DNA of 24,400 bases, taken from contig JACRGO010000036.1 of assembly GCA_016212295.1 (NCBI GenBank), forward strand, positions 1 to 24,400, read 5' to 3'. A program made the translations under genes and the position numbers. Shown here piece by piece: positions 749 to 24,400 of the stretch; positions within the stretch are counted from its first letter, which is position 1, and each line of letters starts with the position of its first letter. The stretch is from Nitrospinota bacterium. GTDB taxonomy: Bacteria > Nitrospinota > Nitrospinia > JACRGO01. Below the pieces are notes generated by a model. The model searched no databases and was not told the origin of the DNA. It saw only the letters and a program-made list of their open reading frames with translations.

Positions 749-849
749 TATATTTTACGCTCAGAAATTTGTATTTTCCGCTTGAAATAAAATCGCTATT
801 GAATGCTTCAAGAGAAATTTGTTTTGGTTGAGGCCATGTCATGCTATGG
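749..849 (+). repeat. Half copy of the interlocked inverted-repeat family (B-A' part)
   Basis: This stretch aligns over about 95 bases with the left part of the full copy at 20339-20436. Shared pieces are TCAGAAATTTG, then TTTTCCGCTTGAAATAAAAT, then AAATTTGTTTTGG and GGCCATG...GCTATGG. The matching right arm is absent, so this copy cannot form the long palindrome. It lies between two convergent genes and overlaps the last codons of the minus-strand radical SAM gene, whose TGA stop is at 839-841. Confidence 0.8.
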
Positions 850-9056: not shown

Positions 9057-9090
9057 AGGTTAAATAACGGAAAGAAAGTAGAGGGACTTT

Positions 9091-9300
9091 ATATTATTAC
9101 GTTCAGAAATTTGCGTTTTCCGCGCAAATTTTTCAGCCGCTTCTTGCGAGCGCACATGGCTGCAACCAAAATAAATTTCTCTTAAAGCATTCAACGTTGA
9201 TTTTATTACAAGCGGAAAACTTAAATTTCTGAACGTAATAATATCGCCGAACGTTTGAATACGTCGAAATTTATTTTAGTTACGTCCATGCCGCGCTATG
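9091..9300 (-). repeat. Full copy of the interlocked inverted-repeat family (A-B-A'-B')
   Basis: The terminal arms at 9091-9123 and 9212-9244 (ATATTATTACGTTCAGAAAT and its complement) form one inverted repeat with two mismatches in about 33 bases. A second inverted repeat joins an internal segment around 9145-9180 (CATGGCTGCAACCAAAATAA) to the outer tail at about 9265-9300 (TTATTTTAGTTACGTCCATG, ending CGCGCTATG). In the orientation of the 20280-20490 copy, this one is on the minus strand. It lies upstream of the membrane glycosyltransferase gene. No target duplication is evident by eye. Confidence 0.85.
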
Positions 9301-9365
9301 TGGTTGGATTCGTTTAATTGGTTAAATTCGTTGGAGCCAATTAAACCAATGGAACCAATTAAACG
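9298..9365. repeat. AACCAAT-family repeat, copy 1
   Basis: A short-period AT-rich tract: TTTAATTGGTTAAATTCG, then CCAATTAAACCAATGGAACC after an inversion point near 9335. It belongs to the same family as 9920-10029 and 17145-17245. It is non-coding. Confidence 0.75.
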
Positions 9366-9407
9366 AATTTATCCTGAATTGATGAAATTAGAAGATATGC
9401 GGGAGAT

Positions 9408-9919: not shown

Positions 9920-10029
9920 AATTGATTCAAATGGTTCAGTTGGTTCAATTTGTTGATTGGTTAAAACCAATGGAACCAATAGAACGAATTAAACCAGCTA
10001 AACGAGTCAAACCAACTAAACCAATTAAA
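9920..10029. repeat. AACCAAT-family repeat, copy 2, abutting a start codon
   Basis: Alternating TTGGTT and AACCAA words with an inversion near 9960 (TTGGTTAAAACCAATGGAAC). The tract runs directly into the ATG at 10030. The upstream in-frame GTG/ATT codons would give a low-complexity N-terminus rich in KP, EP and RIKP, which is repeat-encoded and unlikely to be real protein. Confidence 0.75.
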
Positions 10030-12987
10030 ATGCCCAAGGAAATAACTTTATACATCCCCTGCTGCAACGCGGAAAAGACCCTTGAGAGGTCGATCCGCTC
10101 AGTTTTGTCCCAAACTTACCCGATAGCGGAATTCTTCGTGGTGGATGACGGATCAACCGATAGTTCCCCCTCCCTCGCCGCAAGGCACGGAGTGAAGCTG
10201 ATCCGCCACGAAAAAAACCTCGGCTTGGCCCAAGCCAGGAACACGGCGCTCCGGCGCTGCAAGACCCCCTTCATCGCGGCCATTGACTCCGACGTGGAAA
10301 TAGACCCGTCATGGCTGGAGAAGATCATGAAAAATTTTTCCAATGCCTCCATCGCGGGGGCGGGCGGAAGGCTGATGGAAAAATTCACGCTTACAGCGGT
10401 TGACCGCTGGCGCCAGGTCCATCTCCCCCAGGACAAGGGGAAAAAGAAAATTTCCAACATGCCCTATCTGGCCGGCGCCGCCTCCGTGTACAGGGTTTCG
10501 GCCCTGAGGGACGCGGGAGGATTCGACAAGCGCTACCGCACTAATTTCGAGGACTACGACATGGGGGTCCGGCTGAACAAGTCAGGACTCCGATTGGTCC
10601 ATGAGCCGCTCGCAATTGCTCGGCACTTAAGGACTGACGATCTTTTTTCCCTGCTGAGCACCTACAGGAATTGGTCACTACCCTTCCACAACCTGGAAAA
10701 AAGGCTTGATAGCATTGCAGGCATCCAGGCCCAGCTTGGCCTGCATCACATCCGGAACAACAGAAAGCTTTTGAATGAGGACGTCCGCCAAAGAAGGTTT
10801 CACCTCCTTTATCCGTCCTTCCTCCTTATGTTCACGGAAATTTTAAAGGACATAAGGCATTTCGTTGAATCGAACCCAAGCTATTCTCCCTTGTTCCCTT
10901 TCGCGGCGCGGATAGTAAGTGATGAACTCCACCGTACCCGGAACATTGCCCCGCGCCTTTCACAAAGGATTGCGAGAGACTTGGCCGCCCATATCAAGGG
11001 CATGCCGGTTTTTCGCGGTAAAAAAGGCGAATGGAATATTCGCGCCGGATTGAAAAAGGAATATCCTTGCATGGACCCGCTGGCCGCGACCTCCATCGGG
11101 GCGACTCTTGAGATCCTGCAAGCGGCCCTGAGAACCCGCCTGGATGAGATCAACAGGGATGCCTTTCATCAGATCATGGCGTCCGCCGATGAAATTCTGT
11201 TCGAGCAAAAAAATAGTCCTTACAAAAAAACCGGCCTTCCCAGGCCGGAATACCGCGTCCTCTTGGCCAATCCCCCCTGGAGGGACAGGGGCCGTTACGG
11301 AGTCCGCGCCGGTTCCCGCTGGCCGCACACGGAACCTTTCTATCCTGAATCCCAGGCAGTGCCGGATTATGTCCCTTTCCCCTTTTTCCTCGCGTACAGC
11401 GCCTCTGTCTTAAAAGGCGCGAAAGGAATCAACTCCTGGATCATTGACGCCATAGCCGAGGGAATGGACGAAGAGATTTTCCTAGAACGCGCCAGGGGCT
11501 TCGCACCGGGCCTGATAGCCATTGAGACCTCAGCGGCTTCATCCGGGAATGACCTTCGCCTGGCCCGTAAGCTGAAGGAAATATTCGGCCCATCCACGTT
11601 GTTAGCTTTTGCCGGACCCCACGTGACCTCCCTGAAAGAGGAATTCCTTCGGGAAAACAAAAAGGCAGTGGACTATCTCCTCCTAGGTGAATACGAATTG
11701 AGCCTGAAGGAACTGGCTGCTTGCCTTGCCCGCGGCAGGAAACCGTCCGGCGTGCAAGGAATATTGTATTGGGAGGACGGCAGGATAGCCGGAGACGGAA
11801 GGCCCGCGCCATTGGTGGACTTAAACAAGCTTCCCCTGCCGGAGCGCCTCACCCTCCCTATCTATAATTACAGGGACCGCTTCGCGGGGATGCCGGAGTT
11901 GAGCGCGCTGGTGATGTCGAGCCGGGGCTGTCCATTTCAGTGCTCCTTCTGCTGCTGGCCCCAAACCTTATACGCTGAAAGGCTTTACCGGCATATCGAC
12001 CCCGCCAGAGTAGCCCTGGAAATGGAAATGCTCGTCAGGAATTTCGGATTCCGGGCGATTTATTTCGACGACGACACCTTCAACATCGGGGAAAAACGCC
12101 TGCTCAGACTATGCGCCGAGATAATAAAACTTGGAATGAAAATTCCCTGGGCAATAATGGCCAGGGCGGACACAACAAGCGCGGAAATATTCAAGGCCAT
12201 GAAGGAGGCCGGTCTTTGTGCCGTGAAATTCGGAGTTGAGTCAGGCTCACAGGAATTGGTGGACGGCTGCGGCAAGAAGCTTGATTTGAGCAAGGCGCTG
12301 GAAACGGTCGGGATATGCAAAAAGCTTGGGATAAAGACCCACCTGACCTTTGCCGTCGGCCTTCCCGGAGAGACGCGGGAAACGATAAGGCAGACCATTG
12401 ATTTCGCGCTGAAGGCCGATCCGGATTCAGCCCAATTCTCCATCATCACCCCCTATCCAGGCACGAGGATTTTCGACACGTTGAGGGAAAAAGGGATGCT
12501 CGTGACGCGGGATTGGACGAAATACGACGGGACATGCGGCGCGGTTTTCAGGACGGAAAATTTTTCGCCGCAAGAGCTGGAAAAGGCCGCGCTGGAGGCA
12601 AGGGAACTGTTCCTGCGGGAAAAGGCCGGCAAGGTTTTTGATGACAGGTTTTCGGGCCTTGTAAGCCTGGTCAAGCAGGGAAAGAAAAGAATAGGAATCT
12701 TCCCCGCCGGATATTACGCCAGGCTGTTCCTGGAAAAATACGGGCTGCTTTCGAGCAAGGGCGTTTTGCTGTTTGATAATGACGCCGGAAAAATAGGGAA
12801 AAAATTTTGCGGCATTGAAGTCCTTTCCCCTGGCAAGATCGAGAGCGTGTCCCCGGATTATCTTTTAATCCTCCATCCCGCCTTCGAGGATGAAATTTAT
12901 AATCAGGTCCGCCACCTTGAGGCGAAAGGCGTCCAAGCGCTGCGGGTATTTGGAGGAGATGGCGTCAAGCTCATAGATTTGAAATAA
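10030..12987 (+). CDS. GT2 glycosyltransferase fused to B12-binding-type radical SAM enzyme
   Basis: Predicted 985-residue fusion. Residues 1-240 form a GT2/GT-A domain, with ITLYIPCCN at the start, VVDDGSTD, the DSD metal motif and FEDYDMG. After a helical linker, residues about 420-570 resemble the B12-binding fold of class B radical SAM proteins (VLLANPPW, FAGPHVTSLKEEF, DYLLLGEYELSLKEL) without an obvious DxHxxG motif. The radical SAM core has CxxxCxxC at Cys634, Cys638 and Cys641, plus IYFDDDTF and KFGVESGSQ. The last roughly 100 residues look like a Rossmann-type nucleotide or sugar binding unit (KRIGIFPAGYYARLFLEKYG). ATG 10030 is chosen because upstream codons are repeat sequence. It is a single-gene plus-strand unit. 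One protein may both transfer and modify a sugar; the substrate is unknown. Confidence 0.8.
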   Translation: MPKEITLYIPCCNAEKTLERSIRSVLSQTYPIAEFFVVDDGSTDSSPSLAARHGVKLIRHEKNLGLAQARNTALRRCKTPFIAAIDSDVEIDPSWLEKIMKNFSNASIAGAGGRLMEKFTLTAVDRWRQVHLPQDKGKKKISNMPYLAGAASVYRVSALRDAGGFDKRYRTNFEDYDMGVRLNKSGLRLVHEPLAIARHLRTDDLFSLLSTYRNWSLPFHNLEKRLDSIAGIQAQLGLHHIRNNRKLLNEDVRQRRFHLLYPSFLLMFTEILKDIRHFVESNPSYSPLFPFAARIVSDELHRTRNIAPRLSQRIARDLAAHIKGMPVFRGKKGEWNIRAGLKKEYPCMDPLAATSIGATLEILQAALRTRLDEINRDAFHQIMASADEILFEQKNSPYKKTGLPRPEYRVLLANPPWRDRGRYGVRAGSRWPHTEPFYPESQAVPDYVPFPFFLAYSASVLKGAKGINSWIIDAIAEGMDEEIFLERARGFAPGLIAIETSAASSGNDLRLARKLKEIFGPSTLLAFAGPHVTSLKEEFLRENKKAVDYLLLGEYELSLKELAACLARGRKPSGVQGILYWEDGRIAGDGRPAPLVDLNKLPLPERLTLPIYNYRDRFAGMPELSALVMSSRGCPFQCSFCCWPQTLYAERLYRHIDPARVALEMEMLVRNFGFRAIYFDDDTFNIGEKRLLRLCAEIIKLGMKIPWAIMARADTTSAEIFKAMKEAGLCAVKFGVESGSQELVDGCGKKLDLSKALETVGICKKLGIKTHLTFAVGLPGETRETIRQTIDFALKADPDSAQFSIITPYPGTRIFDTLREKGMLVTRDWTKYDGTCGAVFRTENFSPQELEKAALEARELFLREKAGKVFDDRFSGLVSLVKQGKKRIGIFPAGYYARLFLEKYGLLSSKGVLLFDNDAGKIGKKFCGIEVLSPGKIESVSPDYLLILHPAFEDEIYNQVRHLEAKGVQALRVFGGDGVKLIDLK

Positions 12988-16160: not shown

Positions 16161-17144
16161 ATGAAAAACAGACTCACTGTATATCTCCTCATCATCCTCG
16201 CCGCTGTTGGGACGGCTTATCTCCTGCTGGAGTGGAACACGGAGCGCGAGGCGCGGGTTGTCCTGCAACAGGAAAACGCCAGGAAAGCGGAAGAGGTCCG
16301 GCGCCTGAAGGAAGACGTCGCCAAGCTGGAGAAGACCATACTGGAGGAAAAGGCGGTGGGGACGCCGCCTCCGCCGGAAAGGCTGGCGGAGGTCTTCGGG
16401 ACCGAGGCCTCGCCTCCTGTCCCAGCGGAAAAGCCAGGGCTCCCGGACAGCGTGCAAAAACTAAGGCCTGAGGAAATAGCCGCGCTGACCATGGCAGAGG
16501 TGGAAATGCCAGGCCCGCCGCCGCCACATCCCTTGGATTGCGGCGCGCTGGAGCTTCGGATCAGGAATTTCTTTTCTTATCTGGACAACAAAGGGTTTTC
16601 GTTTGAAAACGGGAGTAACGCCTATTTTAAACTCATAATGGAAAAGCTTGCACGACGCTTGCCGATAGCAGGGGAAACCTTGAATCCAGAGGACGTGCTG
16701 AGCAACGCCTACCACTTCTACCGGACCCTGGGCAAAAACGATATAAGGTCCATAAAGGATATCTTGGACAAGGAAAAAGACACGATGGAGCAGACCATGG
16801 ACTACCTCTACCAGCACCATGACAGATGCCAGGACAGGGAACAATTTCTTCCTTCCCTGGATGTTCTATATGAGTACGGCCACTTCCTTTTAAGCACGAT
16901 GGGAGGCAGGTCGTATCTCTTCCGCATGGGAGGAAACTTGCGGGTGGTGCTGCAGTATTACTCCGCGCTGATAGTTCATGAGGCGGACCTCCGGGAGGTG
17001 AACCGTTACGGATTGGATATCCGGCCCTACCTATCGAAACTGGAAGGGGAGATAAAGAGCACGAGGGGCCTGTACTTTTCGCTGAAATATGTCGGAATGT
17101 TGGGTGAAGTGAAAAGGTCCTACCGTACGGAACCTCAGGGTTGA
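16161..17144 (+). CDS. Membrane-anchored coiled-coil protein of unknown function
   Basis: Predicted 327 residues. A single N-terminal membrane anchor (about residues 5-23, TVYLLIILAAVGTAYLLLEW) is followed by a charged coiled coil (about 25-65, rich in E, K and R). A proline-rich linker (PPPPERL, PPPPHPLDCG) follows, and then a helical domain from about 125 to the end. The layout suggests a bitopic inner-membrane protein with its bulk outside the cytoplasm. I recognise no catalytic motif or family. No Shine-Dalgarno is apparent before ATG 16161; the neighbouring ATGs do not offer a better start. The gene is GC-rich and followed directly by an AACCAAT repeat tract. Confidence 0.7.
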   Translation: MKNRLTVYLLIILAAVGTAYLLLEWNTEREARVVLQQENARKAEEVRRLKEDVAKLEKTILEEKAVGTPPPPERLAEVFGTEASPPVPAEKPGLPDSVQKLRPEEIAALTMAEVEMPGPPPPHPLDCGALELRIRNFFSYLDNKGFSFENGSNAYFKLIMEKLARRLPIAGETLNPEDVLSNAYHFYRTLGKNDIRSIKDILDKEKDTMEQTMDYLYQHHDRCQDREQFLPSLDVLYEYGHFLLSTMGGRSYLFRMGGNLRVVLQYYSALIVHEADLREVNRYGLDIRPYLSKLEGEIKSTRGLYFSLKYVGMLGEVKRSYRTEPQG

Positions 17145-17245
17145 AAAAAATAGTTAAATTGGTTGAATTAGTTAAAACCAATCAAACCAATTCAACCAAT
17201 CAAACCAATTCAACCAACCGAACCAATTCAACCAATCAAACTGTT
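17145..17245. repeat. AACCAAT-family repeat, copy 3
   Basis: About ten 9-base units of the type AACCAATTC / AACCAATCA, preceded by GGTTGAATTAGTT in inverted sense, so the ends can pair. It lies between two convergent genes (16161-17144 and 17260-18228). The reading frame through it encodes only TNQTNSTN-like low complexity and is not a gene. Confidence 0.85.
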
Positions 17246-17259
17246 TTCCTCTCCCCCCT

Positions 17260-18665: not shown

Positions 18666-18681
18666 TGTTTTCCTTTTTGGT

Positions 18682-18696
18682 CGCGGCAAAGCCGCG
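18682..18696. other. Short GC hairpin downstream of the kinase gene
   Basis: CGCGGCAAAGCCGCG forms a 6-bp stem with a 3-base loop. On the minus strand it is followed by A-rich, not T-rich, sequence, so it is not a canonical intrinsic terminator. Confidence 0.4.
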
Positions 18697-18709
18697 CCAT
18701 GGTGGATGA

Positions 18710-20279: not shown

Positions 20280-20490
20280 CCAATAGCGCGACATGGCCGC
20301 AACCAAAATAAATTTTCCGTGCATCAAGACGTTTGATTATATTATTACGTTCAGAAATTTGCCTTTTCCGCTTGAAATAAAATCGGCGTTGAGCGTTTAA
20401 AAGAAAATTTTTTTGTTGCGGCCATGCCGCGCTATGCTACTGGCTCAAAAAATTTGCGCGGACAGCGCAAATTTCTGAACGTACTAATAT
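20280..20490 (+). repeat. Full copy of the interlocked inverted-repeat family (reference orientation)
   Basis: Order along the plus strand: A at 20280-20315 (CAATAGCGCGACATGGCCGC then AACCAAAATAAATTT); B at 20339-20362 (ATATTATTACGTTCAGAAAT); A' at about 20403-20436 (TTTTTGTTGCGGCCATGCCG, ending GCTATG); B' at 20467-20490 (GCGCAAATTTCTGAACGTAC, ending TAATAT). A pairs with A' and B pairs with B', so the two inverted repeats interlock. The total length of about 211 matches the copy at 9091-9300. It lies just upstream of an ORF6N-type remnant. Confidence 0.85.
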
Positions 20491-20524
20491 AATACAGGTT
20501 AAAGGAAGGAATATCTTTTTTCAA

Positions 20525-21736: not shown

Positions 21737-21761
21737 TTGCCGGTTATCAGATGCAATTCTT

Positions 21762-21836
21762 AGAAGCTGTTTTGAAAAAGATATTATGGTCTGCAGGCTT
21801 GGTCTTCAGGATAAACATTTTTTCAAAACAGCTTCT
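21762..21836. repeat. Perfect 18-bp inverted repeat between yebC and ruvC
   Basis: AGAAGCTGTTTTGAAAAA (21762-21779) and its exact complement TTTTTCAAAACAGCTTCT (21819-21836) enclose a 39-base loop. There is no T-run after the stem, so it is not a classical terminator. The arm sequence resembles the outer arms of the element at 9755-9904 (CAAACAGCT, TTTGAAAAA), suggesting a shared repeat origin. Confidence 0.8.
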
Positions 21837-21864
21837 TAAATTTTAAATCTTGCCTCCCCTATTC

Positions 21865-22356: not shown

Positions 22357-22958
22357 TAGCCCTTATAACAGGCGCATTGGCGAAAAAATCACCGGAGTTT
22401 CTCATACTCGACGTCCACGGCGTCGGGTACAAGGTCTACACTCCCCTCTCAACCTATTGCGCCCTGCCGGAATTGGGAAAGGTTGTCACCCTTCATATTC
22501 ACACCCATGTACGGGAGGACGCCTTCAAGCTATACGGCTTTCTCACGTCTCGTGAGCAATTCCTGTTTGAGAAGCTGATTTCCGTGTCAAAGATCGGCCC
22601 CAAGCTTGCCCTCAATATCCTCTCCGGGATGCCGGCCCAGGACCTGGAAGCGGCGGTGATGCAGTCAGATACCCAAAGGCTGGCGTCCATTCCAGGCGTC
22701 GGGAAAAAAACTTCCGAGCGGTTAGTGGTCGAACTAAGGGACAAGATTAAAACATCCTTCCCGTCCATAGGGGCCATGCCGGGCGGCCATTCCAAAGGCG
22801 GTAATACTCTAATGGGCGATGCCCTGTCCGCCCTGACCAATCTGGGGTTCCCAAGGGACAAGGCCGAAAGGGCGGTAGCCGGGGCATGGCAACAAAAAAA
22901 CGAGGACGAGTGGAGCGTTGAGCAGTTGATCAAGGAATGCCTTAAAATACTGGTGTGA
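22353..22958 (+). CDS. ruvA: Holliday junction branch migration protein RuvA
   Basis: Predicted 201 residues. The N-terminal OB fold ([31 protein letters not shown]) is followed by two helix-hairpin-helix motifs ([28 protein letters not shown]). After a glycine-rich linker comes the C-terminal RuvB-contacting domain ([20 protein letters not shown]). ATG 22353 overlaps the ruvC TGA; an upstream in-frame start would add 15 residues not seen in RuvA. The stop at 22956-22958 is followed at once by a repeat element that separates it from ruvB. Confidence 0.96.
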
Positions 22959-22960
22959 TG

Positions 22961-23125
22961 ATATTATTAAGTTCAGAATTTTGCGTTTTCCGCGCGAGTT
23001 TTTCAACCGAAGCATTCAACGCGGATTTTATTTCAAGCGGAAGACGCAAAATTCTGAACTTAATAATATTACAAACGTTTGGATACATCGAAATTTATTT
23101 TGGCTGCGGCCACATCGCGCTATGG
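22961..23125 (-). repeat. Internally deleted copy of the interlocked repeat, inserted between ruvA and ruvB
   Basis: The terminal arms at 22961-22993 and 23037-23069 pair, with a perfect 25-base outer part (ATATTATTAAGTTCAGAATT...). The outer tail at 23070-23125 (AAATTTATTTTGGCTGCGGC, ending CGCGCTATGG) matches that of the other copies. Compared with the full copies it lacks about 45 internal bases, essentially the A' module. The arms carry paired changes relative to the other copies (for example AAGTTCAG with CTGAACTT in place of ACGTTCAG with CTGAACGT), so base pairing is kept. Confidence 0.85.
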
Positions 23126-24147
23126 AAAACAGAATGCTGGATTCAGAAATGCTCTCCGAGGACGCAGACACCGAACTTAAAATCCGGCCCAAGAGGTTCG
23201 ACGAATACACCGGGCAGGAAAAGATCAAGGAGAACCTCAAGATATTTATCGGGGCAGCAAGGAAGCGCGGAGAGTCGCTTGACCATTGCCTCTTTTACGG
23301 GGCGCCGGGGCTGGGCAAGACAACCCTGGCCTTTATCATAGCCGCGGAGATGGACGCGCAACTGAAGATGACGTCAGGCCCTGTGCTTGAAAAGCAAGGG
23401 GACCTTGCAGCTATCCTGACCAGCCTTGAACAAGGGGACGCCCTTTTTATAGATGAAATTCACCGGCTTAACAATTCCGTGGAAGAGGTCCTCTATTCCG
23501 CCATGGAAGACTTCAAGCTGGACCTCATGATAGGGCAAGGCCCCAATGCCCGCTCCATCAAGCTTGATCTCCCAAGGTTCACCCTGATAGGGGCTACCAC
23601 CAGGGCCGGCCTCCTGACCGCTCCGCTTCGCGACAGGTTCGGAGTGGTCCATCGTCTGACTTTCTATTCTCCCTCGGAATTAAAAGAGATACTTATCAGG
23701 TCCTCCAGGATTTTAAAAGTGGAATGCCATGAAGACGGCGCGGAGGAGATCGCCTCCAGGTCAAGGGGGACCCCCAGAATTGCCAACCGGCTCCTGCGGC
23801 GGGTGAGGGATTACGCGCAGATGGAGTCAGACGGAGTTATCACGAAAGACGTGGCGGACAAGGCCCTGAGGATGATGGAAGTCGACCACAAGGGGCTGGA
23901 TGAGATGGATTACCGCCTGCTCCTGTCCATTATAGATAAATTTTCAGGCGGGCCGGTGGGGCTGGATACATTGTCAGCCGCGTTGAGCGAGGATAAAGGG
24001 ACCATTGAAGACGTGGTGGAGCCTTTCCTCATTCAATCCGGTTTCATCCAGAGAACCCCAAGGGGAAGGATCGCCACGTCTCTTGCCTACGAACACTTCA
24101 ATAGAAAGCTCCCCCGGCCCTACCAGGTCCCCATCGGCGATTTTTGA
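23122..24147 (+). CDS. ruvB: Holliday junction branch migration ATPase RuvB
   Basis: Predicted 341-residue RuvB, normal length. Walker [10 protein letters not shown] is at 60-68, Walker B FIDEIH at 109-114, followed by sensor [11 protein letters not shown] and the RDRFG arginine-finger region. The C-terminal winged helix includes [20 protein letters not shown] and [16 protein letters not shown] 23122 is chosen because residues upstream in the same frame are encoded by the repeat element and do not belong to RuvB. The start codon itself lies in the conserved end of the repeat (CGCGCTATGG) and no Shine-Dalgarno is seen, so the insertion has probably replaced the native leader and coupling to ruvA. 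Confidence 0.96.
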
Positions 24148-24251: not shown

Positions 24252-24400
24252 GATACTTACTCGCCTATTCTGAGAATTTATCTCGCACATTTCATTTCCC
24301 GGCAATGAGCCAAAAATATTTGAAATTTCAAAAAGGCGGCAAAAAGTAAAACGTTTCATGGCAAAAAGAGATAAATTTTCGGAATAGGCGAGTAAGTATC
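24252..24400. mobile_element. Terminal-inverted-repeat element (MITE-like, or IS end) at the window edge
   Basis: The left arm 24252-24284 (GATACTTACTCGCCTATTCT...) and right arm 24368-24400 (GAATAGGCGAGTAAGTATC at the end) pair over 33 bases with two mismatches. The roughly 83-base centre has no gene; a 14-codon ATG frame at 24305 is not convincing. The element ends exactly at the window edge, so a flanking target duplication cannot be checked, and it could be the 5' end region of a larger insertion sequence. Confidence 0.65.

Follow-up and report, generated by a model that had tools for sequence, protein, structure and literature searches.

The question raised by this locus is whether two inverted repeats that cross each other, instead of lying one inside the other, form a genuine repeat architecture and, if so, what kind of element carries it. 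As a rule, a palindromic repeat of bacteria consists of one hairpin or of a pair of REPs. The window, a 24,400-nt stretch of contig JACRGO010000036.1 from a Nitrospinota bacterium, was proposed in an initial annotation to carry two full copies of a repeat in the order A-B-A'-B', in which A pairs with an internal segment A' and B with the far end B'. This order was considered unusual for a MITE, and a structured RNA, a single-strand transposition substrate and a fusion of two elements were put forward as possible meanings.

Two full copies of a non-coding repeat of ~210 bp, in opposite orientations, were indeed found where the initial annotation had placed them. The first (consensus 2-211, order A-B-A'-B') lies at 20283-20491 on the plus strand, with arm A at 20283-20317, arm B at 20338-20371, arm A', the reverse complement of A, at 20403-20436, and arm B', the reverse complement of B, at 20458-20491. 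The outer tip of A reads (C)ATAG-CGCG.C-AT.-GCCGC-AACC, a REP-like left end, and the right end reads ...GAACGTA(A/C)TAATATA. The second copy, at 9090-9300 on the minus strand, has A at 9266-9300, B at 9212-9244, A' at 9145-9179 (outer limit approximate) and B' at 9090-9123. Pairing in the first copy amounts to 92% over 26 nt for A (20283-20308) with 20410-20435 and 89% over 36 nt for B (20336-20371) with 20458-20493; in the second copy it amounts to 94% over 33 nt for B' with B (9091-9123/9212-9244) and 84% over 25 nt for A with A' (9155-9179/9266-9290). In addition, the window contains an internally deleted copy (22961-23124, minus strand; consensus 1-117 joined to 163-210) that has lost A' and kept B-B', a fragment bounded by the tips of B and A' (749-848, plus strand; consensus ~57-157) and a lone A-type, REP-like tip in A' orientation (18675-18701, plus strand).

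Further copies were sought in the host genome of the window (3.74 Mb, 237 contigs, ~90% complete). A BLASTN-type search, in which 40 of 365 candidates were scored, yielded about 30 full-length copies, and a covariance model built from 29 copies was used for a genome search, giving 31 copies that span model positions 1-210 at E ≤ 5e-46. The module order is A-B-A'-B' in all 31, and the spacing between module cores (21, 43 and 45 nt) is constant to within 1-3 nt in nearly all of them. The interlocked order is thus invariant in full copies, instead of showing the random arrangement of A and B that would have marked a chance juxtaposition. Allowing at most three mismatches, the core pattern of B was found at 189 places and that of A at 177, against 0 and 1, respectively, for the reversed-pattern control, which excludes chance.

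Beyond the host genome, the genus-mate G001 carries one right-end fragment of the element, and nothing convincing of the family was found outside G001 among 25-60 relative genomes. This near-absence in relatives indicates that the family expanded in the host lineage. A covariance-model match in another genome (G009) was rejected as an element copy, as it represents a simple unrelated hairpin. Exact-pattern scans found no match to the element body in the genome_contigs set and none to its right end in viral contigs.

To judge whether the two stems are maintained, changes on both sides of a pair were used rather than the percentage of paired positions, as the arms had been defined as inverted repeats in advance and the shuffles leave relatedness among copies in place. 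Aligned over 29 copies, A-A' comprises 35 pairs, 89.9% of which are formed. Both-sides changes occur in 11 of these pairs and in 32 cells, compared with 5.4 and 9.0 in shuffled alignments, and these values were reached in none of 500 shuffles; slid-register controls gave 1-9 such cells. RNAalifold, moreover, recovers the A-A' stem unaided, with 10 compensated pairs. The B-B' stem comprises 33 pairs (91.8% formed), with both-sides changes in 4 pairs, a number reached by 54 of 500 shuffles, and in 8 cells, reached by 1 of 500. When B-B' was scored on 37 copies, including partial ones, 12 compensated cells were found in 6 pairs (shuffled 4.5 ± 1.5, maximum 10 in 300), two of these changes being contributed by the window copy at 22961-23124, which lacks A'. 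Scored jointly as a crossing structure, a measure that counts pairs and not their coexistence, A-A' and B-B' show both-sides changes in 15 pairs and 40 cells, values that none of 500 shuffles attained. These results show that both stems have been kept paired in evolution, the covariation of B-B' being the weaker. That of A-A', the absence of which would have pointed to a fortuitous architecture, is clearly present. Several copies (L023, L011 and L015) carry private changes of multiple bases that are matched in the opposite arm. This points to one of two processes, correction templated by the hairpin or selection acting on master copies.

The ends of the element are well defined. CATAG-CGCG forms its left end and GAACGTAATAATATA its right; the terminal sequences, CATAGCGCG on the left and GTAATAATATA on the right, are unrelated, and the pairing partner of each is internal. 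The ends are thus not inverted copies of each other, and with its two crossing stems the element is no simple hairpin, as first surmised. Segmentation of ~190 matching stretches revealed that most pieces start at consensus position 1-3 or end at 207-211, and short forms of ~39, 50, 78, 100 and 112 bp retain both outer tips, the shortest consisting of CATAGCGCGG joined to AAAACGC.... Deletion junctions lie in short shared words such as GCGCGG and AAATTTC. Of the 45 left-anchored pieces that extend to position 36 or further, 25 end at 54-66, the tip of B, which is far above uniform expectation; these break-point counts are indicative, being biased by the choice of copies by their A or B core and compared with a simple uniform null. 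A few other copies start at the B tip (L030, L102, L088 and the window fragment at 749) or terminate at that of A'. Breaks therefore occur at all four module tips, in keeping with a former separate existence of A...A' and B...B'.

No target-site duplication was detected in 41 two-ended copies for k = 2-9, there being no excess over shuffled flanks, and no target motif was apparent, with a flank information content of at most 0.32 bit and a weak A/T preference only. Likewise, the information content of the left flank, scored over 25 positions in 96 left ends, does not exceed 0.22 bit at any position, and no conserved target tetranucleotide precedes the left end on its 5' side. As no insertion/empty-site pair was found for the element, we infer its mobility from its dispersal.

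Parts of the element also occur by themselves. Other repeat bodies of the host genome, for example ...AACCAAAGGGAAAACAAAATCCCAAATGACAAATAG... and ...AACCAAAATTCGAATATCG... (own-genome loci L194-L212), are likewise headed by the initial 23-27 bases of A. The same 23-27-nt REP-like hairpin, CATAGCGCGGCATRGCCGCAACC(AAA), is nearly identical across MAGs of many phyla (L213-L249, e.g. L242, L248 and L249). Its 23-mer was found in MAGs labelled Kiritimatiellae, Lentisphaeria, Acidobacteria, Planctomycetota (Pirellulales, Brocadiaceae, Scalindua), Nitrospirae, Magnetococcales, Chloroflexi, Hydrogenedentota and Desulfobacterales, where it is followed by different hairpin repeats with recurring junctions. 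Several of these other-phylum genomes hold 10-57 A-tip copies with a dominant tag of their own, such as CACAG, CCTAG or CTTAG. Among 84 A tips the tag is ATAG in 54, ATGG in 10, GGAG in 5 and GTAG in 1, usually preceded by C, and its last two bases (AG/GG) are mostly kept. Conversely, B occurs without A as a 58-bp B-B' hairpin at L102. The occurrence of A without B, here and in other phyla, and of the B-B' hairpin without A supports the suggestion that two elements have been fused.

We favour, with modest confidence, the reading that the element is a composite non-autonomous mobile palindrome, in which two REPIN/TIR-like elements became fused with overlap and which a Y1 transposase may move in single-stranded form. 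One of these elements would be A...A' (consensus 1-157), with its REP-like hairpin tip, and the other B...B' (57-211), with its TIR-like 33-bp inverted repeat, the two sharing the B-A' middle. The element would spread as single-stranded DNA, its tip hairpins being recognised and cut in trans by a Y1/HUH transposase of the RAYT/TIRYT kind. While exposed, the strand would fold into either the A-A' or the B-B' hairpin, and this would account for the conserved pairing of each stem. Slippage between short repeats within the hairpins, or strand transfer between them, may give rise to shortened forms, and the broken pieces could reflect ordinary decay. The transposase step is the least certain part of this explanation.

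A partner enzyme was sought among the Y1 genes. The host genome contains two Y1 (IS200-like) transposase genes, L042 and L043, both scoring near or above the cut-off of the NCBIfam model for REP-associated tyrosine transposases. Neither of these two genes, in a genome that is ~90% complete, has A or B on each of its two flanks. Downstream of L042, 10 bp past its stop codon, there is a 26-bp B' end, with no second copy upstream. Relatives of L042 are mostly flanked by GGGGTCA-type TIRs, and L042 itself has a GGGGTCA motif upstream; on these grounds L042 was rejected as the dedicated RAYT/TIRYT partner, and the adjoining B' end is probably fortuitous. L043 was also rejected, as it is flanked by its own, different palindromes. 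In 30 Y1 loci from other A-rich genomes no clear A tip was found nearby. One acidobacterial MAG has an A-like site with four mismatches upstream of its sole Y1 gene; in total, two A-like sites, one of them at chance level, were seen near the 30 loci, versus an estimated ~0.7 expected. The proposed single-strand transposition substrate is compatible with the asymmetric hairpin tips and the lack of target-site duplication, and single-strand transposition is plausible from sequence; none of the transposases found could be tied to the element. As a separate observation, long Y1 transposases (~325-340 aa; L042/L173 and L174-L192) occur across the class, mostly with terminal inverted repeats of the GGGGTCA(A/G)GTCTTG type. 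They match the TIRYT description in PMC3733652, where long-TIR transposases with a GGGGWSAS motif are reported.

Several other explanations were weighed. Because the A-A' and B-B' stems cross, a nested fold holds one at a time, and in the best single fold of either strand it is A-A' that forms, B' being confined to a small local hairpin. A structured RNA, or an RNA switch alternating between these mutually exclusive stems, would account for the covariation of both and for a plus-strand fold whose stability greatly exceeds that of shuffled sequences (z -4.8 and -5.5 in two copies). However, the complementary strand folds about equally well, single-stranded DNA parameters give even larger z than RNA folding, and many copies are broken. 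Furthermore, the element has no Rfam family match at gathering score, and full copies are not oriented towards genes, with a gene start beyond the right end in 17 cases and a gene stop in 21 according to crude ORF calls. An RNA reading is consequently highly improbable, and the structured RNA offered in the initial annotation, like RNA function in general, is unsupported. Alternatively, the element could be a MITE of a DDE-type insertion sequence, with B...B' as a true 33-bp-TIR element that captured A and A'. The clean 33-bp inverted repeat formed by B-B' fits such an origin, as do the copies that begin exactly at the B tip and the left-anchored pieces that end there. We nonetheless consider this quite unlikely, since the actual termini, A and B', are not inverted copies of each other and both a target-site duplication (k = 2-9) and a target motif are lacking.

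Copying driven by the hairpins themselves, without a dedicated transposase, is in our view rather unlikely, though the strongest of these rivals. According to this explanation, microhomology and template switching allow long palindromes on the lagging strand to spread and rearrange, with the A tip acting as a mere hotspot or docking sequence for many palindromic repeats. The position of deletion junctions in short repeats, the A tips found beside many unrelated hairpin repeats and the outcome of the search among Y1 genes all agree with it, as do the compensatory changes, which are often private to one copy and several bases long (L023, L011), as templated correction gives. On the other hand, ~100 copies share the same sharp termini and composite junctions are met repeatedly at separate loci, suggesting defined end recognition. 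A further reading, decidedly unlikely, is that the element is a distinct type of mobile palindrome that moves by switching between its mutually exclusive crossing hairpins, A-A' forming in one state of the strand and B-B' in another and the tips of A and B' being exposed in turn, with the cross-phylum A-tip hairpin as the shared end of many unrelated palindromic repeats.

The fused, overlapping palindrome that we prefer can be compared with described systems. REPINs and BIMEs are inverted pairs or mosaics of REPs tied to RAYT/TnpAREP (PMC3116915, PMC3733652, PMC6006769). Like these, the element is short, extragenic, high-copy, inverted palindromic and devoid of target-site duplication. As in REPINs, its A tip consists of a 5-bp stem, a ~3-nt loop and a 5'-foot tetranucleotide ending in AG, and A and A' form an inverted pair in all full copies, with compensatory change. 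In contrast to REPINs, it interleaves two unrelated inverted pairs with arms of 33-35 bp. It also differs from RAYT-associated REPs in its tag, which is ATAG, the canonical GT[AG]G not being kept, and in that no RAYT gene flanked by A or B was found in the ~90% complete host genome. For TnpAREP, the foot of the REP hairpin bears a guide tetranucleotide, and cleavage takes place at CT/CA sites (PMC6006769, PMC8266576). The A-tip tag ending in AG and the C|A left boundary resemble this recognition and cleavage (PMC8266576, PMC6006769), a similarity that does not by itself test membership.

In Pseudomonas putida and P. fluorescens, hundreds of structures have been described in which degenerate REPs adjoin unrelated stem-loops (PMC3733652). 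The element shares with these REPs and with the TIR families of TIRYTs its long TIR-like dispersed repeats and the position of A beside unrelated stem-loops. It departs from the TIRYT families in that the TIRYT-type gene examined here has its own GGGGTCA-type motif and the same TIR is not present on both sides, and crossing of two inverted repeats does not feature in the TIRYT/REP description in the accessible portion of PMC3733652. Asymmetric ends, subterminal hairpins and the lack of target-site duplication recall non-autonomous elements of the IS200/IS605 type, from which the element is distinguished by having no conserved target tetranucleotide at its left flank. Classical MITEs (ERIC, NEMIS, RUP, Bcr1 and others; 70-300 bp) are likewise non-coding, intergenic, palindromic and high in copy number, but the element has actual ends without a terminal inverted repeat, no target-site duplication and two crossing stems versus one hairpin. 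As it fails a defining test of each family considered, the element is not placed in a named family and is counted with the REP/MITE kind. Within the open literature, as distinct from subscription papers, no described equivalent of interlocking or interleaved inverted repeats was found. Crossing stems with compensatory change offer a natural test of hairpins forming as DNA in the cell and of the origin of composite elements, and the A tip, nearly identical across several phyla and joined to repeat bodies of many unrelated kinds, suggests an end sequence in wide use, the enzyme for which could be sought directly.

A number of minor observations concern the surroundings of the copies. On contig C50, a left and a right end lie 2.5 kb apart, and a broken tyrosine recombinase (integron/phage-type by eye) and a methyltransferase fragment are present between family end pieces (L193, 698-1859); this stretch was rejected as an autonomous element, its contents being judged by eye to be no transposon. 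At L208 (133-415), another hairpin repeat (AGTAACCGTTCACGG...CCGTGAACAGTTACT) is inserted into a left-end piece of the family and flanked by repeated AAATTT. The window also contains AT-rich, hairpin-forming arrays with a 9-bp period (AACCAATTA-like) at 9308-9368, 9956-10032 and 17138-17256, the first of which adjoins the left tip of the copy at 9090-9300, and unrelated inverted repeats at 24252-24400 (33-bp arms, 94%) and 21755-21843 (25-bp arms, 88%). Finally, within 22958-23126, the deleted copy at 22961-23124 occupies the whole spacer between a RuvA-like frame (stop 22958) and a RuvB-like frame, and the left tip of the element (CATAG, minus strand) provides an in-frame ATG at 23122 that may serve as the ruvB start codon.
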